From NCBI GenBank assembly GCA_964023275.1, contig OZ029918.1, positions 37,464,977 through 37,528,976 of the forward strand: a stretch of 64,000 nucleotides of DNA. Direction: 5' to 3'. Shown piece by piece: positions 10,263 through 64,000 of the stretch. The stretch's first letter is position 1. The number at the start of each line of letters is the position of its first letter. Below the pieces are notes generated by a model that did not search any database, was not told the DNA's origin, and saw only the letters and a list, made by a program, of their open reading frames with translations. The translations under genes and the position numbers were made by a program. This DNA is from Norana najaformis. Taxonomy: Eukaryota; Annelida; Clitellata; Crassiclitellata; Hormogastridae.

Positions 10263-13200
10263 ATGTTTGAAAACGGCGAGTTGTCGCTTGTCCTCACAAC
10301 GGTTGCAGCGACTGGAGTCATCCTCTTCATCCTTCTCTTCATCAAGCGAAACGGAACGAATGATGCAAGAAGACGATATCCACCTTCATTACCAGCTCTA
10401 CCACTCTTCGGTGCCATTCTTCGTGGAGGGATGAGCATCCTGCCAGGCTACTTCATGAAATCAGCTGAGAAACTTGGTCCTATGTTTTCGTGTAACGTAG
10501 GAGTAAGGTAGGACAAAAAATATGGTATCAGTGTGCTAGAGATGACGTCAACTATGTAACCCTCGATGGGAACCTATGTGTGTGCTTGAGCACGCGAATG
10601 GTGAATTCTCAGGTTTCTGAGCATTATGAGGTTCTAGATGAATTAGTTGTCCTTAAGAAACTTCACGCGCATTTAGGCTGGCGAAGACAACGCTCTTTTG
10701 AGGGTACTTGGAAGGTGATATGTTAATGTCTAGATACAAAAATCCACACACACATATATACATACACTCATTCATGGTCTCAGCTAATCCCAGGCTCTGA
10801 AATATATAGCCCAATTTCGTTCGTGCTGTTAATTCTGTGATGTCAATCACGTCTAAAATGAAGACGCACATCTTTCAACCTGCTTACCCACTGTGACCTG
10901 GCTTCTGGTTTCCATGATCTATCAGAATTCGAACCGGCGTTCTCTAATGGATTATGACTTTGATCGCGACAATAATTTGAAGCGACCATCAGCTGATGCC
11001 TTGGACATTATGATAATGGAGTGTTTATCACTGATTTTACTTGTTCTGGTCTTGAGCGCTCCTGTTGAGCTCACCCCCTCCCAAGAGGTGCTTTACAAAT
11101 CTTAAATTACCAAAAATAGAATTAAAGTGGACCTATGGAAGTTTTTACATTCGACACATACATGCAAAAATCCATGATTACATATGTACAAAAAACAAAT
11201 ATACATGCATATATACATTCATTCATTCATACATACATACATTCTATCATGCATGCATTCATGTATACATATATACATCGATCCATGTATGTAGACGTGA
11301 GATTCTGTAAGCCATAGCTTTGCCTTTTTTCAAGAACGAACCAAAATTTCTCCAAATTCTGGATCGAAAAATTGTGCAGAAACTTCTGAATCTTTATTGT
11401 TGATTCATATTTTAATATTTACACAGCCCTACTTCATCAAAATCGCTGAAAAATCGTCATCGAAAAGTTAAGGAGAGGGGTAATTTCTACATATATGCCA
11501 GGTTTTAAATGTAGAACGAGTCACATATTCTTAAGATAACCTTGGTTAATTTATTGTCACCTATTCAACAAACAGGTGACAATAAATATACGTCATGAAT
11601 ATGTGACGCTGATGATAGAAATCTATAAGTTCCAAATGCTTTAAATCTGATTAAATGAGCCGATTTAAAAGCTGAATCTGAGTGAAAACGTACAAATCAT
11701 AGAAACATACAATCACTGTCACATCAACAGTGTCCCTATTGAGCTAATTTTCTACTGCGTATGTGTTTTTGTCCAGAGTGGTCGTCATCCTCAGTAGTAA
11801 ACAGGCGATTTCAGAAGCCTTTCTTAGACAATCGGAAGCCTTTGCCGACAGAATTGATATGTGGACAGAGAAGAATATTCTCAACCCAAGCCTCAGAGGT
11901 TTGTAGATCCAGTAATTAAGTTATTCACCATGTTTAAGTTACTGACTATGCGATATGCTGTTCTCCACATTAGGCGGAAGTGGCGCCTTGAAAGCATGTT
12001 CACGTATCGGGTTGTGTTGTCCCTTACTGAACTGTAATAAAACGTTACTTTACACAATTGTATTGAATTGTATTGTATTACACCGTGCTCTATTTTATTG
12101 CATCGCATTTTAGTGTATTGTAAATAAACTGGATTTTATTGTGTTATATTGAAATAAACCATGTGCTACAAACATTGAAGATTTTTATTATGCAAAAAGC
12201 ATGTATATATCTACTTGATAGAGAGGTGGGTAGTTAGTTAGATAGATCAATCGACATACGGACAGACACACTGACAGACTCAACAAGTATATACTACATA
12301 AGTATCGTATGTTTGCAACACGTTGATTTGCGATCTTTTATAATAACATGGAGCTTCAATTCAATGAAATGACTGACACTTTTTCTTGACTAGGTATAAT
12401 TTATGCAAGATACAACGACGCTTTAAAGAAGAACCATAAGCTGTGTCTCACCATCCTCAAGGAGTTTGGATTCGGAGTCAACAGCGTTTCTGAGACTCGA
12501 ATTCTTCAAGAAGTGGAATCGCTAAACGAGGAAATTCTTAAACTTAACGGCCATCCATTCGATCCAAAAATGTTGACTGTTTTATCAACCTTCCGTGTAG
12601 TTTCAAGTATTCTTTTTGGAAAAACATTTTTGTCCTCGGGCAATTGGCATAAAAGAATAGCTGAAGGCATCAGAGAGTATGCGAAAAACACCGAATTTTC
12701 ATTCAACTTTGTCCCTTTTTTGAGGTTTCTGCCCTACTTTCGTAGGAAGATCTCCGCTTTGGAGCAGTGCCGGGAAATGATTCTGAAAGGCATTGATGAA
12801 GGAATCGAATGCAGTAAGTCTAATGATCGCGAGTCAACATTCGTGAGAAGATTTATAGAAATTCAGGGGACCAAATACGACCATCACGACCTTCTCTACA
12901 TCGTTCGAGATCTGTGCTTAGCTAGTGCAGAGACCGTATCAACAACCCTGCATTGGGCAATGGTGGAATTAGCCAACCATCTTGAAGTTCAGACCCGTTT
13001 ACAAAAGGAAATCGATGACGTGGTACCAGAGGACAGGTTTCCTTCACTCGATGATAAACCGCGTTTGCCTTACACAGAGGCTGTGATCCTAGAAGTCATG
13101 AGACGTCGTACTGTTGTACCGCTTTATCTACCACACGCGACACTCAAGGACACGGAGGTTCTCGGATACTACATACCAAAAGGATGCATGGTAATCATCT

Positions 13201-14319
13201 AGTTGTATGATTTTCGAAGTATGCCATTATTGTGGCTGGCGAATAGCACTTGTGTGTGGTTAAAATTATACGCTATAGCAATGAATAGATACTGACCACA
13301 ATATTGCTTCAGTGATTCGTAGGAAGTTGTCATCTTTAATGTGCCCTATTGTGAAAAAGCTAATATTTTATAGTATTATTGTTTTACGATCGGTAATAAT
13401 TGAGAAGTTAGCAATTAACATCTTCTGGATGTTTAAAGCTTGTCTCAACTGCAAATTACATTGATTTTGTTTTCATAGGTTCTCGCTAACGCCTTCTGTG
13501 CTCACATGGACCCAAAATCCTGGAGAGACCCGGAGAACTTCAGGCCGGAGAGATTCCTGGATGAAAATCACACGATAATTGGAAGTGAAAAAGTAATACC
13601 ATTTGGACTGGGTATGATCCTGCGGATATATACACATATTTATTTTTAAGAATTATTTTAATTATTGCGAAGATTTATAAATTTCAACTCGCTTAGCTAC
13701 CGTCGCTTGACTTCCATTTTCTTTGACCTGTTGCATTTCGACTTGAATTATCAACACTTTACGGAACTTGGCAACGGTGCCACGTTCAACTCCCATCAAT
13801 TAATGCCTTGTGAATATTGAGAGCAGCGCTCTAGAAGTTGTTAAATGACGCTGGATTATATCATCTTATCCTTGAAGCATAGACTCTAATCACTTACACT
13901 TTACTGAACTTCGCTGATGTTGCCATTTGAACTAAGCAAAAAATTTCTTTTCCTTGCCATTGAAACCAAACCTCAGTACTTGAAACTGGAAGTTTCAAGT
14001 TCATAAAGAGTGTCTCACTGATCCTCATACTAATATATGCCACTGAAATTCACATCCATTGTGTACAACTTCTGAAATCTTAGCTGATTTATTTGACCCT
14101 ACTGCTTTCTTTTGGTATGTTCTAGGAAAGCGTTCTTGCCTTGGAGAGATTCTGGGTCGTCAGGAGATCTTCCTCTTTCTCACGAGTCTCGTCAAACGCT
14201 TCGATATCAGACCACCAGAGGGTCAGGACTCGATCAGAGTGAAGGAGATTATAACTTCAGTAATGCGCCCTTCGGAATTCGAAGTGAGACTAATTCCCAG
14301 AAGGAAGATCAAGAACTGA
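10263..14319 (+). CDS. P450-1: CYP2-like cytochrome P450, complete, 496 aa
   Basis: Coding exons: 10263-10507, 11777-11898, 12394-13190, 13479-13611 and 14126-14319 (1491 nt with stop). Introns are GT-AG. The ATG directly follows a CTTAG acceptor. Residues 8-27 form a hydrophobic anchor, and 37-47 the basic and proline-rich hinge [11 protein letters not shown]. The C helix has L133 and H137 where WxxxR is usual. The I helix has a normal acid-alcohol pair, E302-T303 (SAETV). ExxR is E356-R359, PERF is 411-414, and the heme loop [10 protein letters not shown] has its ligand Cys437. Expected role: endoplasmic-reticulum monooxygenase using electrons from P450 reductase; substrate not deducible. 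AATAAA lies at 14581-14586. Of the closely related trio it is the one that keeps the canonical I-helix pair. Confidence 0.94.
11150..11300. repeat. CATA/CATG microsatellite in intron 1 of P450-1
   Basis: Tandem ACAT, ATAC and ATTC units. The same tract lies at the same place in intron 1 of P450-2 (18890-19010), P450-3 (26560-26690), P450-6 (46030-46160) and, shorter, P450-8 (61940-61985), and in the relic at 33950-34183. The tract is therefore older than the array. Confidence 0.75.
11520..11607. repeat. Nested inverted repeat in intron 1 of P450-1
   Basis: Outer arms GTCACATATTC (11520-11530) and GAATATGTGAC (11597-11607) are perfect complements. Inner arms of 14 bp (11549-11562 and 11574-11587) are also perfect. 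The element recurs in P450-2 and P450-3. It may be a small palindromic MITE or a structured intronic RNA. Confidence 0.7.
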
Positions 14320-15449: not shown

Positions 15450-15614
15450 CTCGTTTTCATCTTAAAATAGCCTGTACTACCAGCAGCGGCCATCTACCTA
15501 ACCTCACCGCCTCCGTTTGTTGCCCATATATGAGCAAAGGGCGAGTTTCTTATAATTTAAGTAGACACATTCACGACATTCACACATTTAGATCTGTCAA
15601 CAACATGCGACAAG
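15450..15614 (+). promoter_or_regulatory. Conserved promoter block and non-coding leader exon of P450-2
   Basis: CTTAAAATAGCCTG, CAGCGGCCATC, CCGCCTCCGTTTGTTGCCC and a TATA-like CATATATGAG (about 15525) occur in the same order as in the other copies. The leader exon ends CAACATGCGACAAG, with the donor GTAAGG at 15615. The matching acceptor is CTTAG just before the ATG at 17986, giving a 2.4-kb 5'-UTR intron. Transcription start inferred near 15555. Confidence 0.65.
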
Positions 15615-17985: not shown

Positions 17986-20900
17986 ATGTTTGAAAACGGC
18001 GAGTTGTCAGTTGTCCTAACAACGGTTGGAGCGATTGGCATAATCATCTTCTTCCTTCTCTTCATGAAGCGAAACGAAACGAAGGATGCAAGAAGACGAT
18101 ATCCACCTTCATTACCAGCTCTACCACTCTTTGGTGCTATTCTTCGTGGAGGAATGAGCATCCTGCCAGGCTACTTCATGAAATCAGCTGAGAAACTTGG
18201 TCCTATGTTTTCGTGTAACGTAGGAGTAAGGTAAGACAAAAAATATGGTATCAGTGTGCTAGACATAACGTCAACTATGTAACCCTCGATGGGAACCTAT
18301 GTGTGTGCTTGAGCACGCGAATGGTGAATTCTCAGGTTTCTGAGCGTCATGTAGTTAGAGATGAATGAGTTGTCCTTTAGAAACTTCACGCTCATTTAGG
18401 CTGGCGAAGACAATGCTCTTTTGTGGGTACTTGGAAGGTGATATATTAATGTCTAGATACATAAATGCATACACACATATATACATACACTCATTCATGG
18501 TCTTAGCTAATCCCAGGCTCTGAAATATATAGCCCAATTACGTTCGTGCTGTTAATTCTGTGATGTCAATCACGTCTAAAATGAAGGCGCATATCTTTCA
18601 ACCTGCTTACCCACTGTGACCTGGTTTCTGGTTTCCATGATCTATCAGAATTCGATCCGGCGTTCTCTAATGGATTATGACTTTGATCGCGACAATAATT
18701 TGAAGCGACCATCAGCTGATGCCTTGGACATGTTGATAATGGAGTGTTTATCACTGATTTAACTTGTTCTGCTCTTGAGCTCTCTTTTTAAGCTCACCCC
18801 CTCCCAAGAGGTGCTTTACAAATCTCAAATTACCAAAAATACAATTAAAGTGGACATATGGAAGTTTTTACATTCGACACATACATGCAAAAATCCATGA
18901 TTACATATGTACAAAAAACAAACATACATGCATGCATTCATACATACATACATACATTCCATCATGCATGCATTTATGTATACATATATACATCGATCCA
19001 TGTATATAGACGTGAGATCCTGTAAACCATAGCTTTGCCTTTTTTCAAGAACGAACCAAAATTTCTCCAAATTCTGGATCGAAAAATTATGCAGAATCTT
19101 CTGACTCTTTATTGTTGATTCATATTTTAATATTTACACAGCCCTACTTTATCAAAATCGCTGAAAAATCGTCATCGAAAAGTTAAGGAGAGGTGTAATT
19201 TCGACATATATGCCAGGTTTTAAATGTAGAACGAGTCACATATTCTTAAGATAACCTTGGTTAATTTATTGTCACCTATTCAATGAATAGGTGACAATAA
19301 ATATGCAAGTCATGAATATGTGACGCTGATGATAGAAATCTATAAGTTCCAAATGCTTTAAATCTGATTAAATGAGCCGATTTAAAAGCTGAATCTGAGT
19401 GAAAACGTACAAATCATAAAAACATACAATCACTGTCACATCAACAGTGTCCCTATTGAGCTAATTTTCTACTGCGTGTGTGTTTTTTTCAGACTGGTCG
19501 TCATCCTCAGTAGTAAACAGGCGATTTCAGAAGCCTTTCTTAGACAATCGGAAGCCTTTGCCGACAGAATTGATATGTGGAGAAAGAGGGATATTCTCAA
19601 CCCAAGCCTCAGAGGTTTGTCGATCCACTTATAAAGTTACTGACAATGCGATGTGTTTTTGGTCACATTAGATAAGTGGCGCGCTGAAAGTATGGTGAAG
19701 TATTGCGTTTTGTTGTCCCTTACTCAACTGAACTGAAACGTTCTTTCACTCTACTGCATCGCATTGTATTGTATCGCATTGTACTACATTGCTTCCTTAT
19801 GCAATGCATTGTTTTGTATTGTATTGAAAAAACCACATGCTACAAACTTTGAAGATTTTAAAATGCGAATACTGTCTACTAACTATTGGCATGATAGATA
19901 GTAAATAAATCCATTGATCAACGGTCGCACGGACTGACGCATGGACAGACTCAATAAAAATCGTCTAGTTAAATACAGTAGGCTTAAGTTTGTAACACGT
20001 TCAACTGCGATCTTTTTAAACAACGTTAAATCTCAATTCAATTAACTGCCCAACATAATATTCTTGGCTAGGTATAATTTTCGCAAGATACAACGACGCC
20101 TATAAGAAGAACCATAAGCTTTGTCTCAGCATCCTCAAGGAGTTTGGATTCGGAGTCAACAGCGTTTCTGAGACTCGAATTCTTCAAGAAGTGGAATCAC
20201 TAACCGAGGAAATTCTGAAACATAACGGTCACCAATTTGATCCCAAAATGTTGACTGTTTTATCGACCTTCCGTGTAGTTTCAAGTATTCTTTTCGGTGA
20301 AACATTTTTGTCGTCGGGCAGTTGGCATAAAAGGATAGCTGAAGGCGTCAGGGAGTATTTGAAAAATCTCGAATTTGCATTCGACTTCGCACCATTTTTG
20401 AGGTTTCTTCCCAACTTTCGTAGGAAGATCGCCTCTTTGGCGCAGTGCCACCAAGACATACTGAACGGCGTTGAAGAAGGAATCGAGTACAGCAAGTCTA
20501 ATGATCGCGAGTCAACATTCGTGAGAAGATTTATAGAAATTCAGGGGTCCGATTACGACCACCAGGATCTTCTACACATTCTTCGAGACCTCTGCTTCGG
20601 TAGTGCAGGGAACGTAGCGACAACGTTGATGTGGGCATTTGTGGAATTAGCCAACCATCCAGAAGTCCAGACACGCTTTCAAAGGGAAATCGATGACGTG
20701 GTACCAGAGGACAGGTTTCCTTCACTCGATGATAAACCGCGTTTGCCTTATTCGGAGGCTGTGATTCTGGAAGTCATGAGACGTCGTACTGTTATACCGC
20801 TTTATCTACCACACGCGACACTCAAGGACACGGAGGTTCTCGGATACTACATACCCAAGGGATGCATGGTAATCATCTAATTACATGTTTTGCGAAGTTT

Positions 20901-22022
20901 GACATTATTGTGGCTGGCGATTAGCAACTATGTGTGGTTAAAATTATACTCTATGGCAATTATCATTGAAGAACACAATATTGCGAATCTGAGTTGCCAA
21001 TTGAGACTTTCGTTGTCATATTTACTGTGCCCTATTGTGAAAAAGCTATCACATCTTAGTATTATTATTTTACGATCGGTAATAATGACAAGTTAGCAAT
21101 CAACATGTTCTGGATATTTTAATCTTGTATCAAATGCAGATATACTGATTTTTCTTAACCTAGGTCCTCGCTAACGCTTTCTGTGCTCATATGGACCCAA
21201 AATCCTGGATAGACCCAGAGAACTTCAGACCAGAGAGATTCCTGGACGAAGGTCACGCGATCATTGGAAGTGAAAATGTAATACCATTTGGACTGGGTAT
21301 GATTCACCGGATATATTGTTAAGAATTATTTTAATTTATAAGGTAAAAGTTAGCAATTTCAACTCGCTTTACCATCGTAGCCTGACACCTGTTTTCTCTG
21401 ACTTCCTGTTATTCGACTTAACGTATTCAACGCATTACCAGTTTTGACAGCGGGTTCGCTTTTAACGACCATTGATTGATGCCTTATATTGTGTCATAGC
21501 GATTATATAGGATATATTGTATTCTAAAACAGATTTTCTAATATTCTAGATATGTTGGATTAAGTCATATTACCGTTAAATCATAGACTTTACTGACTCA
21601 TACTTAACTCAGCTCCACGGATATTGTTTGCTCAATTAAGATTATAAATTTTCTTTTTCTCAAAATAGAAAGCTAACCTCATTTCTCCAGATTGGCAATT
21701 CAGGGCATTAGATAGTGGCTGACTGACCCATACATATCTCGCATAAATGTTCACAGCGAATGAAATATACGTCTGAAGGCTTCGCAGAATTAAAATGAAC
21801 CAACTGCATTTCTTGTGGTCTGTTCTAGGAATGCGTTCTTGCCTTGGAGAGATTCTAGGTCGTCAGGAGACCTTCCTCTTTCTCACCAGTCTCGTCAAAC
21901 GCTTCGATATCCGACCACCAGAGGGTCAGGACTCGATCAGAGTGAAGGAGATCATAGGTGCGAGCATAAGTCCTTCGGAATTTGAAGTGAGACTGATTCC
22001 CAGAAGGAAGATCAAGAACTGA
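17986..22022 (+). CDS. P450-2: CYP2-like cytochrome P450, complete, 496 aa, altered I helix
   Basis: Coding exons: 17986-18230, 19493-19614, 20072-20868, 21164-21296 and 21829-22022, in the same phases as P450-1. Anchor, hinge, ExxR, PERF and the heme loop (GMRSCLG, Cys437) are present. The I helix reads FGSAGNVATT: residues 302-303 are G-N in place of the acid-threonine pair that delivers protons to bound oxygen in ordinary P450s. The frame is intact and all splice sites are good, so the change is not obvious decay. Exon 2 has WRKRD where neighbours have WTEKN or WTENN. It may do peroxide- or rearrangement-type chemistry, have slow monooxygenation, or be an early pseudogene. AATAAA at 22285-22290. 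Confidence 0.93.
19235..19324. repeat. Perfect 39-bp palindrome nested in a second inverted repeat, intron 1 of P450-2
   Basis: Inner arms 19264-19282 and 19284-19302 are perfect 19-bp complements around one base. Outer arms 19235-19245 and 19314-19324 are perfect 11-bp complements. It is the most complete of three copies. Confidence 0.8.
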
Positions 22023-23144: not shown

Positions 23145-23314
23145 GTGACCTCGTTTTCATCTTAAAATAGCCTGTACTACCAACAGCGGCCATCTACCTA
23201 ACCTCGCCGCCTCCGTTTGTTGCCCGTATATGAGCAAAGGGCGAGTTTCTTATAATTTAAGTAGACACATACACGACATTCACAAATTTAGACCTGTCAA
23301 CAACATACGACAAG
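23145..23314 (+). promoter_or_regulatory. Conserved promoter block and non-coding leader exon of P450-3
   Basis: Same boxes as P450-2: CTTAAAATAGCCTG, CAGCGGCCATC, GCCGCCTCCGTTTGTTGCCC and a TATA-like GTATATGAG. The leader exon ends CATACGACAAG, with the donor GTAAGG at 23315. The matching acceptor abuts the ATG at 25646. Confidence 0.65.
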
Positions 23315-25645: not shown

Positions 25646-28600
25646 ATGTTTGAAAACGGCGAGTTGTCAGTTGTCCTAACAACGGTTGGAGCGATTGGCA
25701 TAATCATCTTCTTCCTTCTCTTCATGAAGCGAAACGAAACGAAGGATGCAAGAAGACGATATCCACCTTCATTACCAGCTCTACCACTCCTCGGTGCTAT
25801 TGTTCGTGGAGGAATGAGCATCCTGCCAGGCTACTTCATGAAATCAGCTGAGAAACTTGGTCCTATGTTTTCGTGTAACGTAGGAGTAAGGTAGGACAAA
25901 ACATATGGTATCAGTGTGCTAGACATAACGTCAACTATGTAACCCTCGATGGGAACCTATGTGTGTGCTTGAGCCCGCGAATGGCGAATTCTCCGATTTC
26001 TGAGCATTATGTAGTTAGAGATGAATGAGTTGTCCTTTAGAAACTTCACTTTCATTTAGGCTGGCGAAGACAATGCTCTTTTGTGGGTACTTGGAAGGTG
26101 ATATATTAATGTCTAGATACATAAATGCATACACACGTATATACATACACTCATTCATGGTCTTAGCTAATCCCAGGCTCTGAAATATATAGCCCAATTT
26201 CGTTCGTGCTGTTAATTCTGTGATGTCAATCACGTCTAAAATGAAGGCGCATATCTTTCAACCTGCTTACCCACTGTGACCTGGTTTCTGGTTTCCATGA
26301 TCTATCAGAATTCGATCCGGCGTTCTCTAATGGATTATGACTTTGATCGCGACAATAATTTGAAGCGACCATCAGCTGATGCCTTGGACATTATGATAAT
26401 GTAGTGTTTAACACTCATTTAACTTGTTCTGGTCTTGAGCTCTCCTGTTGAGCAGACCCCCTTCCAAGAGGTGCTTTACAAATCTTAAATTACCAAAAAT
26501 ACAATTAAAGTGGACCTATAGAAGTTTTTACATTCGACACATACATGCAAAAATCCATGATCACATACATGTATGTACAAAAAACAAACATACATGCATA
26601 CAAACATTCATTCATACATACATACATGTACATACATTCCATCATGCATGCATTTATGTATACATATATTCATCGATCCATGTATGTAGACGTGAGATCC
26701 TGTAAGCCATAGCTTTGCCTTTTTTCAAGAACGAACCAAAATTTCTCCAAATTCTGGATCGAAAAATTATGCAAAATCTTCTGACTCCTTATTGTTGATT
26801 CATATTTTAATATTTACACAGCCCTAGTTTATAAAAATCGCTGAAAAATCGTCATCGAACAGTTAAGGAGAGGTGTAATTTCGACATATATGCCAGGTTT
26901 CAAATGTAGAACGAGTCACATATTCTTAAGATAACCTTGGTTAATTTATTGTTCCCTGTTCAACGAATAGGTGACAATAGATATGCAAGTCATGAACATG
27001 TGACGCTGATGATAGAAATCTATAAGTTCAAAATGCTTTAAATCTGATTAAATGAGCCGATTTAAAAGCTGAATCTGGGTGAAAACGTACAAATCATAGA
27101 AACATACAATCACTGTCACATCAACAGTGTCCCTATTGAGCTAATTTTCTACTGCGTATGTGTTTTTGTCCAGACAGGTCGTCATCCTCAGTAGTAAACA
27201 GGCTATTTCAGAAGCCTTTCTTAGGCAACCGGAAGCCTTTGCCGACAGAATTGATATGTGGACAGAGAACAATATTCTCAACCCAAGCCTCAGGGGTTTG
27301 TTGATCCAGTTATTAAGTCATTGACAATGCGATGTGTTGTTGTCACGTTAGACAAGTGGTGCGCTGAAAGTATGGTGAAGTATTGCGTTTTGTTGTCCCT
27401 TACTCAACTGAACTGAAACGTTCTTTCACTCTACTGCATCGCATTGTATTGTATCGCATTGTACTACATTGCTTCCTTTTGCAATGCGTTGTATTGTATT
27501 GTATTGAAATAAATCACATGCTACAAACTTTTAAGGTTTTAAAATGCGAATACTGTCTACTAACTATTTGCATGATAGATAGACAGTTAGGTAAATAAAT
27601 CCATTGATCGACGGTCGCACGGACTGACGCACGGACATGCAGACAGACTCAATAAATATCGACTAGTTAAATATAGTAGGCTTATGTTTGTAACACGTTC
27701 AACTGCGATCTTTTTAAACAACGTTAAATCTCAATTCAATTAACTGCCCAACATTTTATTCTTGGCTAGGTATATCTTTCGCAAGATACAACGACGCTTA
27801 TAAGAAGAACCATAAGCTTTGTCTCAGCATCCTCAAGGAGTTTGGTTTTGGAGTCAACAGCGTTTCTGAGACTCGAATTCTTCAAGAAGTGGAATCACTA
27901 ACCGAGGAAATTCTTCAACTTAACGGTCACCAATTTGATCCCAAAATGTTGACTGTTTTTTCGACCTTCCGTGTAGTTTCAAGTATTCTTTTCGGTGAAA
28001 CATTTTTGTCGTCGGGCAGTTGGCATAAAAGAATAGCTGAAGGCGTCAGAGAGTATATTAAAAATCTCGAATATGCAATCGACTTCGCACCATTTTTGAG
28101 GTTTCTTCCCAACTTTCGTAGGAAGATTGCCTCTATGGCGCAGTGCCACCAAGACATACTGAGCGGCATAGAAGAAGGAATCGAGTACAGCCAGTCTAAT
28201 GATCGCGAGTCAACATTCGTGAGAAGATTTATAGAAATTCAGGGGTCCGATTACGACCACCAGGATCTTCTACACATTCTTCGAGATCTGTGCTTAGCTA
28301 GTGCAGGGACCGTAGCGACAACGTTGATGTGGGCATTTGTGGAATTAGCCAACCATCCAGAAGTCCAGACCCGCTTTCAAAGGGAAATCGATGACGTGGT
28401 ACCAGAGGACAGGTTTCCCTCACTCGATGATAAACCGCGTTTGTCTTACACAGAGGCTGTGATTCTGGAAGTCATGAGACGTCGAACTGTTATACCGCTT
28501 TATCTACCACACGCGACACTTAAAGACACGGAGGTTCTCGGATACTACATACCCAAGGGATGCATGGTAATCATCTAATTACATGTTTTGCGAAGTTTGA

Positions 28601-31486: not shown

Positions 31487-31579
31487 ATCGAATCTCGATC
31501 CACCCGATTTAGCGTCGAGCTGAATAGCGACGCAACCTCTTTGGAGGTCCTTGATGTATTAGAAATCAAAACAACTGAC
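31487..31579 (+). mobile_element. LINE relic cut by the P450-4 deletion
   Basis: It matches 23793-23888 up to CAAAACAACTGAC and stops abruptly at 31577-31579, where intron 2 sequence of a P450-3-like gene takes over (ATGCAGACAGACTC, matching 27637 onward). This is the left side of the deletion junction. Confidence 0.8.
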
Positions 31580-38330: not shown

Positions 38331-44410
<6,080 letters not shown>

Positions 44411-45559: not shown

Positions 45560-48500
45560 ATGTTTGACATCGGCCAAGTGTTTGGCGTCGTGACAACGGT
45601 GGCAGCGATTAGCATCGTCTTCTTCATCCTTCTCTTCATCAAACGAATCGGAACGAAGGATGCAAGAAGACAATATCCACCTTCATTACCAGCTCTGCCA
45701 CTCCTCGGTGCAATTCTTCGTGGAGGAATGAGCATCTTGCCTGAATACTTCATAAAGTCAGCGGAGAAACTAGGTCCTGTGTTATCATGCAACGTAGGAG
45801 GAGGGTAGGAAACAAAACATGGTATCAATAGTCAGTGCTAGACGTAACGTCAACTTTGAATCATGAGTGGGAATCTATATACATGCGAGATTCCGCCAGT
45901 GCTGAATTCCCCGTTTTCTGGGTATAATTTGTTTGCAGATCAAAGTGTTGACCTAGGGAACTTTAACGCCATTTAGGCTGGCCTAGATTGCGCTTATATG
46001 AATTACTTTAAAGCCGCTATATTACTGTCCAGATTCATTCCTGCATGCATACTTGCAAACATAGATACATAGTTACACGCATACATGCATATATTGATAC
46101 ACAGATAAATACAAACATAGATACATATTTAACTACATACATACATGCATACATAAACCTACTAGGCGTCGCCAGAATGTAAAACTTTCAAACCACATAT
46201 ATCATACATTTTATGTGACTACCACATTGTCCGTATTAAAGTAGTTTCCCACTTCGTATGAGTTTTTTCAGACTAGTGGTAATTCTCAATAGCAAGACGG
46301 CGATTTCAGAAGCCTTTCTTAGACAGCCGGAAACCTTTGCTGACAAACCTGAGTTCTGGACAGAAAGGAATGTCCTCAACCGACAACTCAGAGGTATGCT
46401 GATCCATTTATAAAGTTATTGACTATGTTTAAATCACTGACTATGCGACATGCTGTTGATTGCAAAGAGTGTAAATGGCACAACTGAAGTGCTTTTTGTA
46501 TTGTAATGTATTGCAACACACTGATCTGTACGCTACTTTACTTTACAGTATCATGCAGCATTGAATAGCACTTCATTGCATTGTACTGCATTGTATTGTA
46601 CTTCATTGTATTGTCTGCATTGTATTGTACTTCATTGTATTGTCTGCATTGTATTGTACTTAATTGTATTGTACTTCATTGTATTGTACTGCATTGTATT
46701 GTACTTCATTGTATTGTCCGCATTAAATTGTACTTCATTGTATTGTACTTTATTGTATTGTACTGCATTGTATTGTAGTTCATTGTATTATACTTCATTG
46801 TATTCTACTGCATTGTATTGTACTTCATTGTATTTTCTGCATTGTATTGTACTTCATTGTGTTGTACTTCATTGTATTGTACTTCATTGTATTGTACTTT
46901 ATTGTATTGTACTGCATTGTATTGTAGTTCATTGTATTATACTTCATTGTATTCTACTGCATTGTATTGTACTTCATTGTATTGTACTGCATTGTATTGT
47001 CTGCATTGTATTGTACTTATTGTATTGTCTGCTCTGTATTTCCTGCATTGTATTGTACTTCATTGTGTTGTAGTTCATTGTATTATACTTCATCGTATTG
47101 TACTTCATTGTATGGCACTGCATTGTTTTATCATTGCGGAGTTATACAATGTGCAAAAATATTTCGTGATTTTTAAGCATTTTCAAATCTGTGTATTATT
47201 TGGTTGTACTTCTGGACAAAGGTGTGCTGTTGGAAGTACTGGAAGTCACAGCAAGTTAAATTTGCGGTTGGAAACCTGCAGGCTTTCATCCCAGAGACAT
47301 ATTATGAGAGTGTCTTTCTTGTAATTTTATAATATAAATGGATGGATGGATGGATGGACAGATGTATGGATGGATGGATGAAACGATGGATCGATGGATC
47401 AATGGATCGATGGATCGATGAATCGATGAATCGATGGTTGGATGGACAGATGCACAGTTAGGTATGACGATCGATGGAAGATAGTACGGACAGAAAGACA
47501 GAGAGACAAAAATGTTGTTAGAATTTATACAATATTTTTTATAGCACGTTCAACTCCGCTCTTGTTAGGTCAACGCTAAGTTAAGTTCAATTCAAGAAAT
47601 CGACTATAATGTATTTTTCTTCACTAGGTATAGGTTTCGCCAGATACAACGACACATTTAAGAAGCAACACAGGCTGTGTCTTTCTATCCTCAAGGAGTT
47701 TGGATTCGGAGTTAACAGCGTCTCAGAAACTCGAATTCTTCGCGAAGTGGAATCACTGACCGAGGAAATTCTTAAACTCAACGGCCAATCATCCAATCCC
47801 AAAATGTTGTTAGCTTTTTCAACCTTCCGTGTAGTTTCAAGTATTTTGTTCGGCAAAGCATTTGTGTCGTCTGGCAACAGCCACAGAAGGATAGCCGAGG
47901 GCGGCCTCGAGTTTGTGAAACACATCGAAATTGCTTTCAATTTCGCCCCTTTTTTGAGGTTTCTGCCCAACTTCCGTAGGAAGATCTACGCTATGGCGCA
48001 GAGCCACAAAGACATCTTGAACGCCATCGAAGAGGGAATCGAGTGCAGCAAGTCTAGGGAATGCGAGTCTACTTTCGTGAGAAGATTTATGGAAATTCAG
48101 GGGAGCGATTATGACCACCAGGACCTGCTCTTCATCCTTCGAGATCTGTGCTTAGCTAGTGCGGATACTGTAGCGACAACACTGATGTGGGCATTTGTGG
48201 AATTAGCCAACCATCCAGAGGTTCAGATGCGTTTTCAAAAGGAAATCGATGACGTGGTACCAGAGGATAGGCTTCCGTCACTCGATGATAAGCCGCGTTT
48301 GCCTTACACGGAGGCTGTGATCCTCGAAGTCATGAGACGTCGTACAGTAGCCCCTCTTTATGCACCGCGCGAAACACTCAAAGACACAGAGGTTCTTGGA
48401 TTCTACATACCAAAGGGATGCATGGTAATCATCGAACAAAGATGCCTATAGAAATTTAACAATGCTGGCGAGTAGTATCTTCGTTTGTTTCTGAGAATGC

Positions 48501-49801
48501 GCTATAGAAATGGCCAAAAACACAGTACATTATAACTTGACACTTTCGTAAGAAGTTGTCTTCTCTGCTGTGCCCTATTCTGAAGTCGCTTATATTTTAT
48601 AGTAGTACTGCCCTATAAACGGTAGCGTATCCTAGACCTTCTGCGGGGACCCTATGTAATTTTTAATCTTGGGTAATGCTCCTGCATTTGCGTGTTAAAA
48701 ATGATGTATGAGATTTGCTTTTACCGTAATACCTTGAATGAAAAGAAGAATTATAACTACGTTGTGTTACAAAAGTCCTGTAAACGTGGGCACCATAAAG
48801 CTCTCATACCTTATAATGGAACGTAGCGAAGGCGCTCATTTCATTCTCTTTTTCACCTTGAGCCAGGAATGGACGAATCCCAAGGTGGATCGTATAAGGT
48901 CAGAGCATTGTGGGACTTACCTTTTACTTCGCACCTTACGCCGCTACCAGATTCTATCGGTTCGTGTAGAAGAACTTCTTTGCAAAGATCAAATGCAGGT
49001 AGAATGATCTTCTGGATGTTTCAAACCTGTACTAATGACGATTTATATTCATCACTTTTGGCTAGGTACTCGCTAACGCTTTCAGTGCTCATATGGACCC
49101 AAAGTCTTGGACAGACCCTGAGAACTTCAGACCAGAGAGATTCTTGGACGAAGATGAAGCAATTATTGGAAGTGAAAATGTAATCGCATTTGGACTGGGT
49201 ATGATTCAACTGCTATACTCCTAGGAATTATTTTGGAACTGTGGTTAAACTCAGCAGTTTGAAATCGCTTAGCCCTTGTTCCGACTTAATTTTTTCGATG
49301 CATTACTAGTTTTGACAACGGTTTCACTTTAAACTACCATGAGTCATTGAGTTATATTGGATTGTGTAATATTAGTCCGTAACGCCTAGAGTCAAGCACT
49401 CATTCTAAATTGAGCTTGAATGATGTTACTGAACTTAAATTAGGAACCAAACTTCAAAACTCCATATTGATTATTTAATTTGATCAGCAGTTTCCAGGAA
49501 GCCACATATCTCTGCTATCAAAGTTCACGTTCCATAAATAAAATATTTTAGCGCTTCGTTGAATTTAGTTGACCAAACTTTCTTCTTATGGGCTGTTCTA
49601 GGAAAGCGTTCATGCCTTGGAGAGATTCTTGCTCGTCAGGAGATCTTCCTCTTTCTCACCAGTCTCGTCCAGCGCTTTGATGTCCGACCACCAGAGGGTC
49701 AGGACTCGATCAGAGTAAAGGAGATCATAGGTGTGAGCATGCATCCTTCGGAATTCGAAGTGAGACTGATTCCGAAAACGAAGATCAAGAACTGCAACTA
49801 A
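45560..49801 (+). CDS. P450-6: CYP2-like cytochrome P450, complete, 498 aa
   Basis: Coding exons: 45560-45804, 46272-46393, 47628-48424, 49066-49198 and 49602-49801. The start is the ATG right after the GTGCCTGAG acceptor; a GTG nine bases earlier is upstream of the splice site and not used. The hinge reads [12 protein letters not shown]. The I helix has a conservative D302-T303 pair (SADTV). ExxR, PERF and heme loop GKRSCLG (Cys437) are intact. The codon split by intron 1 is Gly here and Arg in most copies. The stop has moved two codons downstream, giving KIKNCN. The region after ExxR reads [12 protein letters not shown], different from P450-1 to P450-3, which suggests another substrate. Expected microsomal monooxygenase. 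AATAAA at 49970-49975. Confidence 0.93.
46500..47130. repeat. Expanded TATTGTACTTCATTG minisatellite in intron 2 of P450-6
   Basis: About 630 bases of units such as ATTGTATTGTACTTC and ATTGTATTGTACTGC. Short seeds of the same repeat lie at the same position in intron 2 of P450-1 (12056-12130), P450-2 (19740-19830), P450-3 (27425-27515), P450-5 (39765-39830), P450-7 (55030-55120) and P450-8 (62815-62870). The long apparent Cys/Leu/His-rich frames here are repeat artefacts. Confidence 0.92.
47335..47460. repeat. GGAT/GATC tetranucleotide tract in intron 2 of P450-6
   Basis: GATGGATGGATGG units followed by GATCGATGGATC and GATGAATCGATG units. Confidence 0.8.
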
Positions 49802-53461: not shown

Positions 53462-56400
53462 ATGTTTGACAAAGGCGACTTCTCTGTTGTCGTTACAACG
53501 GTTGCAACGACTGGAATCATCTTCTTAGTTTCCTGGATGAAGCGAAACAGATCGAAGGATGCAGAAAGACGATATCCACCTTCACCATCATATCTTCCAC
53601 TTCTTGGTGCAATTCTTCGTGGAGGAATGAATATGAGTTTGCTACCAGATTACTTCATGAGATTAGCAGAAAAACTTGGGCCTGTGATTTCGTGCAACGT
53701 GGGAGGAAGGTAGGATACAAAATATCGTAGACTCTAGACATCACATCAGCTGTCAAGCCCGGACGGAACTCACTTCCGTCAACCTCACTACCTTCATCGT
53801 ATATGATTCTCAAGACTTGACAGTACTCCACTTAATCTTCTGAATGTCTCACTCAGTCTGTAACGAGGGAAAGAACAGCTTCTGGTGTTGCACCTCTACC
53901 GCTGCTGGCCCCAGACTGTAAATCTTTGCCCACATAAGTTCGCTCTACAGAGGTTGCTCTGGCTATAGTACTCGATCTTAAAACTCATCTTTTGCTGGAG
54001 GTATTCCTCTGTAGGCTTTTTCTATGTTTCCTCGGATTTTTCTCTTCACCTTCGATCGGACTTACCCTGGATTTTGGCATTCGTATCGACATTGCTTAGC
54101 AACGGCTATATGGTAATATCTTGAGCATCATTACAGAGGCGCAGTAGAAAGCCTCGAATTATTATTATTAATATTATCGCAGCATAGGTTCTTCGGCCAA
54201 ACAGGGCACTCAGTAGCTTCATGTTTCAACAGGGTCTATGAAATTAATGATGACTGATGAGGGTTACTGTTTGAACTTCTAGAAATGCAATAAAACTGTT
54301 AGAGGTAAACTATATGAAGAAGAGCTTAGGGCTTTAAGTGTATCCGCTTCCACTACAGCCGTCAAACATGTGTTTAGTTATGGTGGTGTAAAACCAAATA
54401 CTCGTGTATCTAACATCATTGATTAGATAATCACAACTTTAATATTTCTTAAAGGCAATCCTAATGAATGGATATGTCTTATGGCATAATCTGTGAAAAT
54501 AGCTGTTTGATTTAGTCTAAATTCTTCATGATCTCGCAGAAGGTACATGTACTTGAAATCTAACCAAAGCACTTGAGACGTTGAGACCCAAGTAGGCCTA
54601 CTTATATTATAGATATGCTTGAGATTAAAGTACTTGTAGTGAAACTTGTTCTTGAAACCTAAGAATTTTTGATATCTAATACATACATATATACAAACAA
54701 TATATTCGTGTGACCCTTTCCTGTTCGTAAGAATCTGCCCAAACTAACTTCAGCATTAGCATTTAACAATTAATTGACAATCTTTCACTGCGAATGTGTA
54801 TTTTTAAGACTGTTGGTTATTCTCAACGGCAAGAAAGCAATTGCAGAAGTGTTTCGTAGACAATCGGACGTTTTTGCAGACAGATGTGAGTTCTGGACAG
54901 AATCGAATATACACAACCGCAATCTCCGAGGTGTGTTTACCCAGTTACTAAGTTAATGAATATATTTAGCTCTTGACTTCACAATGTGCTGTTTGCCACC
55001 ACAGATATAATTGGCACTCTAGTAATGCAGCGTCGTAATATATTTTATTGTATTGCTTTGAATTATGTTGTATTGAACTGCAATGCAACGCGTTGTAGTG
55101 TATTGTATTGTATTACAACCAAGTTCCTGCATGTGCTATGAAAGTATCGGATTATTAAGCATTGCCAGAACCTTACATAACCATGTCGCTCTGCTTCTGG
55201 ACAAAAGTATAATGTATGGTTTCATAGAGAGTAAGGCAAGAAAAGGAAGACTGCTGGAATTGCTCGACGACCTAGAAGACTAGTGACAAGTTAACGTCCA
55301 CATCTTTTGTCTGGCAGCGCCAGACAGAGAACGCCAGACAGATCACACGTGCCTCAAGTAAAATATTAGTAAATATAATAGTAATTATAAAAATAATTAC
55401 AGTAATAATAAAAATAGTAAAGTTGCAATAGTAGTAATAATAATAAAATAAAAATGTTAATATTAATAATAATAATAGTAATTATTGTAGGCCTAGTAAT
55501 AATAATACCAGTTATACTGGTAGTTGTAGTCGCAGTAGTAGAGATAATATATGAATATGTGTTTCTGAGAAGGGCAAACAAAATTTTGGTAAATCAACGA
55601 TACCTCCATTTTGATTAAACTAGCAACATTTTCTTCTTTCGACTAGGTGTAATTTTCGCAAGATATAATGCTGTGTTTAAGAAGTACCATAAGCTGTGTC
55701 TCACCATCCTCAAGGAGTTCGGGTTCGGAGTCAGCAGCGTTTCTGAGACTCGAATTCTACAAGAAGTGCAATCATTGAACGAGGAAATTCTTCCACTCAA
55801 AGGCCATCCATTCGATCCCAAAATGTTGACTGTTTTATCGACCTTCCGTGTAGTTTCAAGTATTCTGTTCGGTAAGACATTCGCATCGTCGGAGAACTTC
55901 CGCAGGATAGCTGAGGACGTCGGCGAGTATTGGAAAAACATCGATTATTTAATCAACTTCGTCCCTTGTGTGAGATTTCTGCCCAACATCAGTATGAAGG
56001 TTTCTGCAATGGTGCGGCTACACGAAGACATATTGAAATGCATTGAACAGGGAATCGAGTGTACAAAGTCAAAGGAATGCGAACCAACATTCGTCAGTAG
56101 ATTTGTGGAAATTCAAGGGACCGATTATGACCACCAGGACCTGCTCTACATCCTTCGAGATCTGTGCTACGCTAATTTAGATACTCTATCGACAACGTTG
56201 TTGTGGGCATTGGTGGAATTAGCCAACCATCCCGATGTTCAGACCCGCTTTCAAGAAGAAATCGATGACGTGGTACCAGACAACAGGCTTCCTTCACTCG
56301 ATGATAAGCCGCTTTTGCCTTACACGGAGGCTGTGATCCTGGAAGTCATGAGGCAACATGATCTAGTTCCGCTTTTCTTGCCGCGCTTGGCGCTCAAAGA

Positions 56401-58141
56401 CACAATGGTTTTGGGATACTACATACCCAAGGGAAGCATGGTAATCGCTAAATTAAGATTGTTATCAAACTATAACATTACTAAGGCTGCCGAGAAGCAC
56501 CTGCGAGTGTTTCTTCCTTCCTAGCATGTCATGAACATTTTATGGGGCCTACATGTGGCTGATAAAGCCCAATATGGGAATAGGTTGCCATATGAGGCCC
56601 ATGTTGAGAGCCGGCAGGGTTAGAAATAGCGCTATCTAAATGCCGATATACAGACAATATTTCGTGAATCTCTCGGCAGAGCTTTTCATTGTTCTCGGGC
56701 TTGTTTTCTACAATCGGTAAATTAAATTACCCTGAACCTATTCTAAGGACCATAAATTGCTCTTAAACCTCCATAATCACCTAGCAATGTAAGTTAAGAA
56801 CGATGTCTCAGGTTTTCCTTGAACTTATGATATTAAATGACAAGAAGTGTTAAAATGCAGAGCCAATATATTGTGATATAAAGTAAAGGATTATGTAAAA
56901 TAAATTCCAGTGTTCTACAGAGGAACGGAAGGAAGGCCCTGATTTCTTACCTTTAGGGTCTTGAGACGGCAATGGACGAATCACAAGGTCCTGGATAATG
57001 GTCAAGTGCATCGAAGAAATTGCCATTTACTTTTCAGCTTACTCCACTGGTTGGTATAAAAGAATGAAATGCAACGAACAAATGTATTTGTTTATATCTC
57101 CTGTGCCTCTGAAATAAATATGTTTCATTTTAATTCAGTGGCGAATGATATTCATTATGTTCTGGCCAGGTCTCTGCTAACGTTTTCAGTGTTCATATGG
57201 ACCCAAAGTCCTGGAATGACCCGAAGAACTTCAGACCAGAAAGATTCCTGGACGAAGATGACACGATAATTGGAAGTGAAAATATAATCGCATTTGGACT
57301 GGGTATGATTCAACGGTTATATTCTTAGGCATAGATTGAGAACTCCGATAAAAATCCTCAAATTCAACACGCCTAGCCACCTTAGCCTGATTTCCGTTTG
57401 TTTTCTGATCTTCTGTATTTGGAATTAAATTTGCCAAAGCATTAAGAAATTTGACAACGATTTCAGTTTTTGATTTCCTTTGGAGTTGCCTTGTGCACTT
57501 TAGGACTGTTCTCCAGATAAAATTATTAGAATTTATTTCACTTCATTCATTTCATTTTATTACTCCACAAAAGACAACAGCATATAACATACTACATTTT
57601 TAAAAAATCATGTGGTATGGAAGAGGCAATCCCAGAAAGAACCATGTTCAGCTTATTAGGGACATCTACGTCCCTAATAAGCGGAATTATGTCATATTAT
57701 CTAAAATGCATTGACTTGAAGGACTCATATTTCACTGTTAATATGCCAGCTGAACTGATATTATGAAATTTCGTTTTTCTCACCAACCAATACCAATTTT
57801 CAAACCTCAAGATGGTAATTCAGCGTTCTAACAATTTCCAACCTAGCCACATGTATCGGGCATTGCTCTTCACATCTCAAAATTATAATATTTTAAGACT
57901 TCGTTGAATTTAGTTGACCCAATGTCTTTTCTTGTGTCCTGTTCTAGGAAAGCGTTCTTGCCTCGGGGAGATTCTTGCACGTCAAGAGATCTTCCTCTTT
58001 CTCACCAGTCTCGTTCAGCGCTTTGACATCCGACCACCAGAGGGTCAGGACTCGATCAGAGTCAATGAGGTCCGAGGTGGAAGCATATGTCCTTCGGAAT
58101 TTGAAGTTAGATTGATTCCGAGAACGAAGGCCAAAAACTGA
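53462..58141 (+). CDS. P450-7: CYP2-like cytochrome P450, complete, 496 aa
   Basis: Coding exons: 53462-53709, 54809-54930, 55647-56440, 57170-57302 and 57948-58141. The ATG follows the CCTCAG acceptor; an upstream in-frame ATG at 53354 lies in the intron. Exon 1 has one extra codon ([13 protein letters not shown]) and exon 3 one fewer. The I helix is D302-T303 in an unusual context ([10 protein letters not shown]). The SRS5-like region after ExxR is [20 protein letters not shown], quite unlike the others and closer to vertebrate CYP2 (DLVP...KDTM). PERF and the heme loop GKRSCLG (Cys437) are normal. The most diverged intact copy after P450-5. AATAAA at 58633-58638. Confidence 0.92.
55366..55560. 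repeat. AAT-type trinucleotide tract in intron 2 of P450-7
   Basis: Degenerate AATAAT, AGTAAT and AATATT units; it produces a spurious Ile/Thr/Tyr-rich minus-strand frame. Confidence 0.75.
57651..57682. repeat. Perfect 13-bp stem hairpin in intron 4 of P450-7
   Basis: GCTTATTAGGGAC and GTCCCTAATAAGC flank the six-base loop ATCTAC. The preceding 110 bases (from about 57540) are absent from the other copies' intron 4, so the hairpin may be the end of an inserted element. Confidence 0.7.
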
Positions 58142-61469: not shown

Positions 61470-64000
61470 ATGTTTGACATCGGCGAGTTGTCTGTTGTCG
61501 TCAAAACGTTTGCAGCAACTGGAATAATCACCTTCATCCTTCTCTTGATCAAACGAAACGGAAAGAAGGACGCAAGAAGACGATATCCACCTTCATTACC
61601 CATTCTACCACTTCTTGGTGCAACTCTGCGAGGAGGAATGAGCGTCCTGCCAGGCTACTTCATGAAATCAGCAGAGAAACTAGGTCCTGTATTATCAGTC
61701 AGCGTAGGAGGAAGGTAGGAAATAAAGCATGGTATCAATCTTCAGCTCTGGATATGACGTCAGCTGTCAACCTTGAATGGGAATCTACGTGTATGCGAGA
61801 TCCCACCAATGCCGACTTCTCCAATGTCTAAGCATTACTTGCTCAGAAATGATTTTATTGTTGCTGCCATAACTTGAACGAGTTAAACTAGAGTAGGTAG
61901 GGCTTATATGAAGTACTTAAAAGATACTAGTTATATTAATACCTAGATGCATGCATGTATGCATACATACACACATGCATAAAATATGCATAAGTTAGAC
62001 TCTGAACCGCGTTGTATTTTTAAACTTGAAAGAAAATTGCGCAAAATCTTAAGGCCTGTTACTGTTGATTAATTTTTGACCATATGTTTAAATATTTCCA
62101 CTGATCCATTTTTAAGAGCCTATCAAATGAGCTGAAACATGGCTTTCAAACAACATCAGTCATACCAGGTTTTTGCATTTTGAAGCTCGTCACATTCTCA
62201 TCGCCTTAACCCTGCTTTCCAAATCGTCCATTCTTGAAAGAATAGCACTCTCATCGTTCAGCTCATAACTCATTAAACGTTGAATAATCTATACAAACTC
62301 AATGGTGGATTATGTGGACGTGAAAAATATTCCATAAATTCTGTGATTTGGATGGCTTGGCACACAGTTGACACAAAGTATCACTTTTTGAACGCCTCTG
62401 AAGAAGGTCAACGAGTATTATATCAGTCAACGAATTCATGAAATAAGTGACATTGATGATATATATCTTCATTTTGTCACTCTGGGGCACCTGACTCGGT
62501 GAGCAGGTGCATAGGCTGACGCTGTGTCACCGGCATGTAAAAGTGCCCAAAACGTAATCGAACTTTTGTAGCTTCCGCAGAGTTTCAAATGACTAAGTTA
62601 TCTACTAAATATGTGGTTTTCAGACACTTGGTTATTCTCGATAGCAAGGAGGCGATTTCGGAAGCCTTTCTTAGGCAATCGGAAGTCTTTGCCGACAGAG
62701 CTGAATTCTGGACAGAAAGGAATCTTCACAACCGACACCTCCGAGGTATGCTGAACTAGTTACTAAGTAATTGACTATGTTTAAGTTACGGGCTATACAA
62801 CAGATGTAGTGTAGCAGGGTATTGTATTATAGACCACTGTATTGCATTGCATTGTATTAAAATACTACCGAGTTCAGCCAATTATTACAAATTTCGAGGA
62901 ATATTAAAAATTGCGAATACTGTGCATATATTATTTAGCTGAGCTTCTGGACAAAAGATTCATGTCGAGTATAGCAGCGATCGGCATTCGAACCGGCCTT
63001 CTGAAGTTCAAAGGCCAATTGACGTATGCTATGCAAAATGTAGCTAACTGCGTGTTTTCGTTGTATTTTATATACGAGGAATTATTCGTAATATACATAA
63101 TACATAAGATACATGGCATAGTGCACAGTTGACTGAACACGCTTTAGAGTTCGCTATGTCGCAATTACAAAAAGTCGCACTCATTAGCATGCACAGTCTT
63201 CTGATTGTCTTCTACTGAAAATTAAAAGATTTTGCTAAAATTTACTTTAGGTCCAAAATTGAGTACCTGGCTAACTTATTTTTCTTCACTAGGTATAGTT
63301 TTCGCAAGATACAACGATGCTTTTAAGAAGTACAACAAGCTGTGCCTCACCATTCTCAAGGAGTTTGGATTCGGAGTCTACAGCGTCACGGAGGCTCGAA
63401 TTCTTCAAGAAGTGGATTCATTGAATGAGAAAATTCTTAAACTCAAAGGCCATCCATTCGATCTCAAATTGTTGCTTATTTCTTCCACCTTCAGTGTGGT
63501 CTCCAGCATTCTTTTTGGTAAAACATTCGCATCGTCGGGCAACTGCCACAGGATAGCAGAAGAAATCAGTAAGTATTCGGAGCAAATTGAATTTACATTG
63601 AACTTCGTCCCCTTTTTGAGGTTTCTGCCGAACTTCAGGAGAAAGATTTTCGCCATAACGCAATGCCACAGGAACATATTGAAGGGCGTCGAAGAAGGAA
63701 TTGAGTGCAGCAAGTCTAATGAATGCGAGTCAACATTCGTGAGGAGATTTGTGGAAATCCAGGGAACCAGTTATGACGATGAAGACCTGCTCTATATCGC
63801 TCGAGATTTGTGTTTCGGTAGTGCAGAGGCCGTATCTTCAACGTTGCAGTGGGCATTGGTGGAATTAGCCAACCATTCAGAGATTCAGATCCGCTTTCAA
63901 AGAGAAATTGATAACGTGGTACCAGAGGACAGGCTTCCTTCACTCGATGATAAACCGCGTTTGCCTTATTCGGAGGCTGTGATCCTGGAAGTCATGAGAC
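61470..64000 (+). CDS. P450-8: CYP2-like cytochrome P450, 5' part, cut by the window edge
   Basis: Coding exons: 61470-61714, 62624-62745 and 63293 to beyond 64000 (still open at the edge). Exon 3 lacks an early ATG and has no stop in the window, so a simple frame search misses it, but it is open for all 708 bases. The anchor and the hinge [12 protein letters not shown] are normal. Exon 2 reads [24 protein letters not shown]. The I helix reads FGSAEAVSST: the acid (E301) is kept but the threonine is Ala. The frame reaches EVMR of ExxR at the edge. The heme loop is not in the window. The C helix has F and N for W and R. Confidence 0.9.

Follow-up and report, generated by a model that had tools for sequence, protein, structure and literature searches.

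Variation of the I-helix acid-alcohol pair among the copies of a CYP2-like P450 array in the annelid Norana najaformis

Organization of the array

A 64,000 nt window of the Norana najaformis genome (assembly GCA_964023275.1, contig OZ029918.1, forward-strand positions 37,464,977 to 37,528,976) contains nine cytochrome P450 copies, all on the plus strand and numbered here 0 to 8. The acid-alcohol pair of the I-helix, whose two residues ordinarily assist in oxygen activation, can be scored in eight of these, and both the acid and the threonine are present in four of the eight; the pair is altered in copies 2, 3, 5 and 8. The P450 exons were located by tblastn, exon ends were set at splice sites and the models were then translated.

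Six of the copies (1, 2, 3, 5, 6 and 7) are complete five-exon genes encoding 492 to 498 amino acids (aa) without internal stops. Their exons are approximately 245, 122, 797, 133 and 194 nt and their introns are GT-AG. The frames, splice sites, ExxR, PERF and heme loop are all intact in these six, which bears out what the preliminary description of this region had said of the frames, splice sites, ExxR and heme loops of copies 2, 3 and 5.

Copy 1 is at 10263..14319 (exons 10263-10507, 11777-11898, 12394-13190, 13479-13611 and 14126-14319; 496 aa) and the frame of its third exon matches the Pfam p450 domain with an E value of 2.1e-45. It is followed by copy 2 at 17986..22022 (exons 17986-18230, 19493-19614, 20072-20868, 21164-21296 and 21829-22022; 496 aa) and copy 3 at 25646..29719 (exons 25646-25890, 27174-27295, 27770-28566, 28861-28993 and 29526-29719; 496 aa). 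Copy 5 is at 38331..43183 (exons 38331-38572, 39555-39676, 40407-41194, 41922-42054 and 42990-43183; 492 aa), copy 6 at 45560..49801 (exons 45560-45804, 46272-46393, 47628-48424, 49066-49198 and 49602-49801; 498 aa) and copy 7 at 53462..58141 (exons 53462-53709, 54809-54930, 55647-56440, 57170-57302 and 57948-58141; 496 aa). These five likewise match Pfam p450.

The other three copies are incomplete. Copy 4 is a pseudogene at 31713..33660 consisting of exons 3 to 5 (31713-32509, 32790-32922 and 33461-33660), with a single in-frame stop, in exon 3; its exons 1 and 2 were not found by tblastn. Copy 8 (61470..64000; exons 61470-61714, 62624-62745 and the incomplete 63293-64000) runs into the edge of the window, so that its frame and motifs can be traced as far as ExxR. 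Copy 0 is represented at 221..1018 by exon 4 (221-353) and exon 5 (828-1018), which includes the heme loop; its pair lies outside the window. This heme exon has Pro-Gly-Val after the heme cysteine and further changes found in no other copy, and copy 0 may be decaying.

Membership of the P450 superfamily is supported by matches to PF00067 in the exon 3 frames of copies 1 to 7, each with an E value of 1e-41 or better. Within exon 3 the paralogs are 68-94% identical to copy 2. Searches of the PDB were made with copy 1, a profile of the eight copies and copy 5, giving 103, 139 and 83 matches, respectively, of which the best 60 in each were considered. CYP2B leads for all three queries, and the best solved matches for copy 1 are 2B (E 1.4e-34), 2R1 (4e-32) and 2E1 (1.1e-30). 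By closest similarity in sequence, the array is CYP2-like (clan 2). A scan of prokaryote genomes yielded 141 pattern matches and no confirmed relatives, and there was no Rfam match at gathering thresholds. An AlphaFold model of copy 2 exon 3, built with eight paralogs from the window, had a mean predicted local distance difference test score of 39 and was discarded.

The acid-alcohol pair

In copy 1 the pair is Glu302-Thr303 (GAG ACC, 12930-12935). It is retained as ET in the pseudogene, copy 4 (GAG ACC, 32249-32254), and as DT in copies 6 (GAT ACT, 48164-48169) and 7 (GAT ACT, 56180-56185). Copy 2 has GN (GGG AAC, 20608-20613), copy 3 has GT (GGG ACC, 28306-28311), copy 5 has HS (CAC TCC, 40934-40939) and copy 8 has EA (GAG GCC, 63826-63831), all on the plus strand. 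All eight calls made in the preliminary description are thus reproduced by gene models built from the window. The acid is present in five of the eight (copies 1, 4, 6, 7 and 8), with Gly, Gly and His in its place in copies 2, 3 and 5. The threonine is also present in five (copies 1, 3, 4, 6 and 7), being replaced by Asn, Ser and Ala in copies 2, 5 and 8. In copy 5 the serine means that an alcohol is still there, and in copy 8 the acid is still there. Each altered pair is one or two amino-acid-changing base changes away from ET or DT.

The register of the pair is secure as judged by alignment. Exon 3 of copy 1 aligns with the CYP2B and 2R1 chains gap-free across the I-helix, and the eight-copy profile and copy 5 exon 3 align with CYP2B4 without gaps, placing E/T or H/S opposite its Glu-Thr, which we take to be residues 301-302. 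Apart from the pseudogene, ET, DT, GT, HS, EA and GN are found here among close paralogs whose readable parts are otherwise intact.

Other active-site motifs

The clan 2 I-helix oxygen-binding consensus is [AG]Gx[DE]T[TS], and the C-helix WxxxR motif contacts a heme propionate. None of the eight copies matches the I-helix motif in full; the acid is missing in three and the threonine in three. Seven copies have Ser, and copy 7 has Asn, in place of the conserved I-helix glycine (copy 1 residue 300, codon 12924-12926). With a Ser hydroxyl or Asn amide so close to where oxygen binds, this residue could substitute for the threonine. Over copy 1 residues 295-306 Cys297 alone is invariant, and residues 307-308, 310-311 and 313-314 do not vary among the eight copies.

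WxxxR is missing from all eight. The equivalent stretch, which in copy 1 spans 12423-12437 and aligns with GERWRALRRF in CYP2B4, reads L/Y/F-xxx-H in seven copies and FxxxN in copy 8. This array-wide loss may be more telling than the changes in the pair. The I-helix motif has been given as GxE/DTT/S for spider P450s (PMC11927401), and WxxxR is part of the motif lists for spider (PMC11927401) and gastropod (PMC8270824) P450s. ExxR is present in all eight copies with exon 3, and the heme-Cys loop (FxxGxRxCxG) in all eight with exon 5 in the window.

The heme loop of copy 2 (FGLGMRSCLGE, exon 21829-22022) has Met in place of the Lys shared by the other seven copies whose exon 5 lies in the window, and 13 residues past this Met a Thr replaces Ile. 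The two alignment columns, 436 and 449, are fixed in the other seven. The I-helix stretch of copy 2 is F-G-S-A-G-N (20596..20613, plus strand), corresponding to copy 1 residues 298-303. The Phe-Gly (TTC GGT) just upstream of the pair is found in all of the threonine-less copies (2, 5 and 8), and the others have Leu, Val or Tyr followed by Ala. The association (three of three against none of five, p = 0.018) was noticed post hoc among copies that are related and not independent. On the parsimony tree used, the Gly requires three changes, which implies three origins or conversion.

Constraint on the copies

Across all coding sites of the nine copies, pairwise ratios of nonsynonymous to synonymous divergence (dN/dS) are 0.25-0.55. 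Constraint was tested with likelihood ratio tests under the GY94 codon model with F3x4 frequencies, one terminal branch at a time, against a ratio (omega) of 1. For exon 3, omega is 0.31 in copy 1 (p = 0.0005), 0.32 in copy 6 (p = 3e-5), 0.32 in copy 8 (p = 1e-5), 0.54 in copy 5 (p = 0.016), 0.37 in copy 3 (p = 0.047) and 0.33 in copy 2 (p = 0.045). The pseudogene, which serves as a positive control, shows no sign of constraint (omega 3.3, p = 0.14). Taken jointly, the altered copies 2, 3, 5 and 8 have an omega of 0.41 (p = 2.5e-8). With the exon 3 tree and with a third topology, copies 5 and 8 and the joint set of four are still significant. When all coding sites are used, omega is 0.52 in copy 5 (p = 0.0009), 0.36 in copy 8 (p = 2e-6), 0.44 in copy 3 (p = 0.047), 0.53 in copy 2 (p = 0.16) and 0.79 in copy 4 (p = 0.53).

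From these estimates, the support for constraint is firm for copies 5 and 8, moderate for copy 3 and weak for copy 2. The preliminary description had argued that the altered copies are not simply decaying, and that dN/dS near 1 in exon 3 would count against it. The joint test and the contrast with the unconstrained copy 4 uphold the argument for the set; copy by copy it is strong for copy 8, good for copy 5 and marginal for copies 2 and 3.

It is unlikely, but worth serious consideration, that the pair is drifting in copies 2 and 3, and perhaps 5, through early decay or redundancy, the function being covered by other copies and the frames remaining open since the duplications are recent. Copies 2 and 3 differ by a synonymous divergence (dS) of just 0.07, and their nonsynonymous differences (about 32 in an estimated 1155 sites) are not clearly fewer than those in introns (94 in 2544; p = 0.17). 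Copy 2 fails to reject an omega of 1 over its whole coding sequence, as given above, and has the heme-loop Lys to Met and Ile to Thr changes; a genuine pseudogene, copy 4, lies in the same array next to copy 3, and the oxygen-binding hexamer evolves at an omega near 1. Against decay, exon 3 of copies 2 and 3 jointly is constrained (p = 0.0036, on one topology). Of the changes found in a single copy, the nonsynonymous and synonymous ones number 7:4 for copy 2, 7:6 for copy 3 and 22:2 for copy 4. Singly, copies 2 (p = 0.31) and 3 (p = 0.09) do not differ significantly from the neutral expectation, and together their 14:10 differs from the 22:2 of the pseudogene (Fisher p = 0.017). Copies 5 and 8 are old, with a dS of approximately 0.45-0.66 from other copies (all sites or exon 3), yet they are open, with the exon 3 omega values of 0.54 and 0.32. 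Copy 2, which combines GN with the heme-loop Lys to Met change, would be the likeliest either to be failing or to be the most changed of all.

Rate of change at the pair

The oxygen-binding hexamer (copy 1 residues 299-304) has an omega of 0.92 against 0.42 in the rest of exon 3 (p = 0.012, eight copies), or 0.94 against 0.40 when copy 4 is left out (p = 0.007). The pair alone has an omega of 1.5 against 0.42 (p = 0.007). A six-residue stretch at exon 3 positions 175-180 has an omega of 1.1 against 0.4. By parsimony the pair has undergone seven amino-acid changes, a number reached by 3.4% of two-codon windows in exon 3, and a region near residues 214-221 outpaces it.

Positive selection on the pair was considered and is not supported. 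Its omega of 1.5 does not significantly exceed 1 (p = 0.33 with eight copies, 0.34 without copy 4) and the posterior for omega above 1 at residue 302, with copy 4 included, is 0.010. The claim is therefore limited to a loss of the usual constraint. The highest posteriors among the eight copies are at residues 309 (0.998), 219 (0.972), 368 (0.914) and 125 (0.853), and without copy 4 only residues 219 (0.979) and 309 (0.794) exceed 0.5. From the CYP2 alignment and the definitions of substrate-recognition sites (SRS), we place these four residues in the I-helix and within or close to other regions of substrate recognition.

Gene conversion and the origin of the pairs

Gene conversion is likely to be present in the array, judging from run tests on exon 3. 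The strongest signals are between copies 2 and 7 and between copies 4 and 7, at codon columns 181-198, where the observed run was not reached in any of 600 shuffles (p = 0.0017 for each, uncorrected for the 28 pairs). In exon 5 (42990-43183), copy 5 has a dS of 0.12-0.21 from copies 2, 3 and 6, compared with 0.49-0.56 in exon 3, which suggests that the heme exon of copy 5 has been converted. Copy 2 differs from copy 3 by five changes within 24 bases around the pair, two of them common to copies 5 and 8, and the Phe-Gly of copy 2 may have been acquired by conversion.

It is very unlikely that the odd pairs as such were made by assembly, sequencing or conversion mosaics. The probable presence of conversion, the clustering of changes in copy 2 at columns 297-305 and the TTC GGT common to copies 2, 5 and 8 are in line with such an origin. 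Four copies carry four different altered pairs, though, all in open frames. Conversion within the window was rejected as the source of whole altered pairs: the codons of copies 2 (GGG AAC), 5 (CAC TCC) and 8 (GAG GCC) have no counterpart in any other copy there. Conversion from a copy beyond the window is a possible source.

Comparison with known P450 systems

The array resembles the CYP2 microsomal monooxygenases (CYP2B4, 2R1, 2E1, 2C and 2D6) in its ExxR, PERF, heme loop and ungapped I-helix. It differs from them in the pair (four of eight copies), the I-helix glycine (eight of eight) and WxxxR (eight of eight).

Functional P450s without the standard pair are known. The threonine is replaced by Ala in P450eryF and by Asn in P450cin, a replacement like those in copies 8 (EA) and 2 (GN). 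These two are bacterial and belong to other families, and copy 2, unlike them, also lacks the acid. Good conservation of the pair has been described, peroxygenases, P450cin and P450eryF being named as exceptions (PMC9366932), and a reference on P450eryF in the same paper has substrate-assisted catalysis in its title. Aromatase T310A keeps 36% of its activity towards androstenedione, with raised H2O2 and uncoupling (PMC9366932). Disruption of the pair blocks direct formation of Compound I and favours H2O2 (PMC9112060), replacement of the threonine by Ala or Val in P450cam gives oxidase activity (PMC10750395), and a set of CYP2B4 mutants including T302A has altered affinity and rates (PMC10302094). 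In view of the exceptions and the active aromatase T310A, a changed pair alone defines no reaction class. The proposal in the preliminary description of a mixture of monooxygenases with enzymes of peroxide or isomerase type is accordingly not borne out by the pair, since P450cin, P450eryF and aromatase T310A work with a changed one; what stands of that interpretation is that the altered copies are not simply decaying.

An enlarged heme loop is typical of CYP74 and other hydroperoxide-metabolising P450s, and in the CYP152 peroxygenases an Arg sits at the position of the pair. In this array the heme loop is compact, the pair is altered in four of eight copies rather than throughout, and Arg occurs at the pair in none of the eight. 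A conserved Arg of the CYP152 peroxygenases serves as the anchor for the carboxylate of the substrate (PMC9112060). The reaction type of CYP74 is marked by an I-helix groove of six residues in SRS4, and mutating the groove shifts the type (PMC10813956). As in the clan of CYP74 with CYP5A1 and CYP8A1, I-helix residues of the array depart from those of monooxygenases, and in CYP74 such residues steer the reaction. The array differs from that clan in its CYP2-type heme loop and CYP2 similarity.

The use of peroxides or lipid hydroperoxides by copies 2, 3, 5 and/or 8, in reactions of peroxygenase, isomerase, dehydratase or epoxyalcohol-synthase type like those of CYP74, CYP152 and the prostacyclin and thromboxane synthases, is improbable. 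It would fit the altered pair, the parallel between the CYP74 groove and the fast stretch at exon 3 positions 175-180, and the missing WxxxR. It fits poorly with a heme loop, ExxR and PERF that we take to be of CYP2 monooxygenase type, with a pair that lacks the Arg of CYP152, and with the absence of CYP74, CYP5 and CYP8 from the names among the best 60 in each set of 103, 139 and 83 solved matches. Half of the copies without WxxxR still have ET or DT.

Among expanded P450s, those of the spider Heteropoda venatoria are a parallel in that their motif is loosened to GxxTx, with the acid not fixed (PMC11927401). Those genes belong to the CYP3 clan and their motif list keeps WxxxR and the threonine, the authors having removed sequences lacking any motif. 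In this array three copies have lost the threonine too, and all eight have lost WxxxR. No animal CYP2 array with mixed pairs was found in a literature search covering titles and abstract openings, with most subscription journals outside its scope, and this is weak evidence of absence.

Interpretation of the altered pairs

The reading to which we lean, with only modest confidence, is that this is a CYP2-like tandem birth-and-death array in which the active sites, including the proton-relay pair, are diverging while the enzymes probably still use O2 and reductase. The changed pair would then point first to diversification of the active site rather than to proven new chemistry. It is possible that the copies handle changing small-molecule substrates and that the resulting diversification extends to the acid-alcohol pair. 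Copies 1, 6 and 7 (ET, DT and DT) would be expected to be ordinary monooxygenases. Copy 3 (an alcohol and no acid), copy 5 (His-Ser), copy 8 (an acid and no alcohol) and copy 2 (neither) would most likely still use O2 and reductase electrons, and the literature on pair mutants and exceptions makes O2-dependent enzymes whose proton delivery is leaky or relies on a substitute the simplest expectation for them. Protonation of the iron-peroxo species could take place through water, substrate or a neighbouring side chain, as in P450eryF and P450cin, and greater leakage of H2O2 or a shift towards peroxo chemistry may follow. The loss of the threonine is paired with an Ala-to-Gly change (and Phe) upstream, as if the heme pocket had been reshaped as a unit.

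Several points weigh against this reading. The canonical copy 7 does not reject an omega of 1 in exon 3 (0.61, p = 0.078), and the power of the branch tests is therefore limited. On the two alternative topologies copies 2 and 3 alone lose significance (p 0.07-0.12), and the comparison of their nonsynonymous differences with introns is not significant. Constraint on the long-branch copies 5 and 8 could predate the change of the pair, and gene conversion among the copies can distort branch tests. Model M2a is preferred to M1a when copy 4 is included (p = 1.3e-4), but significance is lost when that copy is left out (p = 0.063), and the posterior at residue 302 is the low one given above. Aromatase D309N loses 95% of its activity towards 19-oxo-androstenedione (PMC9366932), which by analogy suggests that loss of the acid, as in copies 2, 3 and 5, is severe. 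The substrate class of the array is a guess.

A bolder possibility, which appears doubtful, is that the I-helix hexamer acts as an exchangeable cassette for reaction type. The pair would have become dispensable after the loss of the Trp-Arg motif and the glycine, and copies would have moved under selection to substrate-assisted, peroxo-nucleophile or hydroperoxide chemistry. If so, the Ser or Asn at the I-helix glycine possibly takes the place of the threonine hydroxyl. The array can in any case be regarded as a natural mutant series, bearing on which half of the pair is dispensable, what compensates for it and whether the chemistry changes.

Duplicated blocks around the copies

The interval 9792-31579 is made up of tandem units carrying copies 1 to 3, with identities of 91% and 86%. 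The 91% match between 9792-23888 and 17559-31579 indicates that these copies are tandem units of approximately 7.7 kb. A second match, of 95.5% between 1889-4189 and 34185-36485, indicates a relationship between the flanks of copies 0 and 4 too. Downstream of these two copies the blocks 1889-6368 and 34185-37314 have approximately 95% identity, so a larger stretch has been duplicated there. At 4250-5581 on the minus strand there is a 443 aa open reading frame with a reverse transcriptase domain (Pfam RVT_1, E 7.3e-21), probably of the long interspersed nuclear element type. It occupies a gap at approximately 4190-5534 between two stretches that adjoin each other in the 34-37 kb copy, which gives it the appearance of having inserted into one of the two blocks after they were copied from each other or before one lost it, an insertion being the favoured view.

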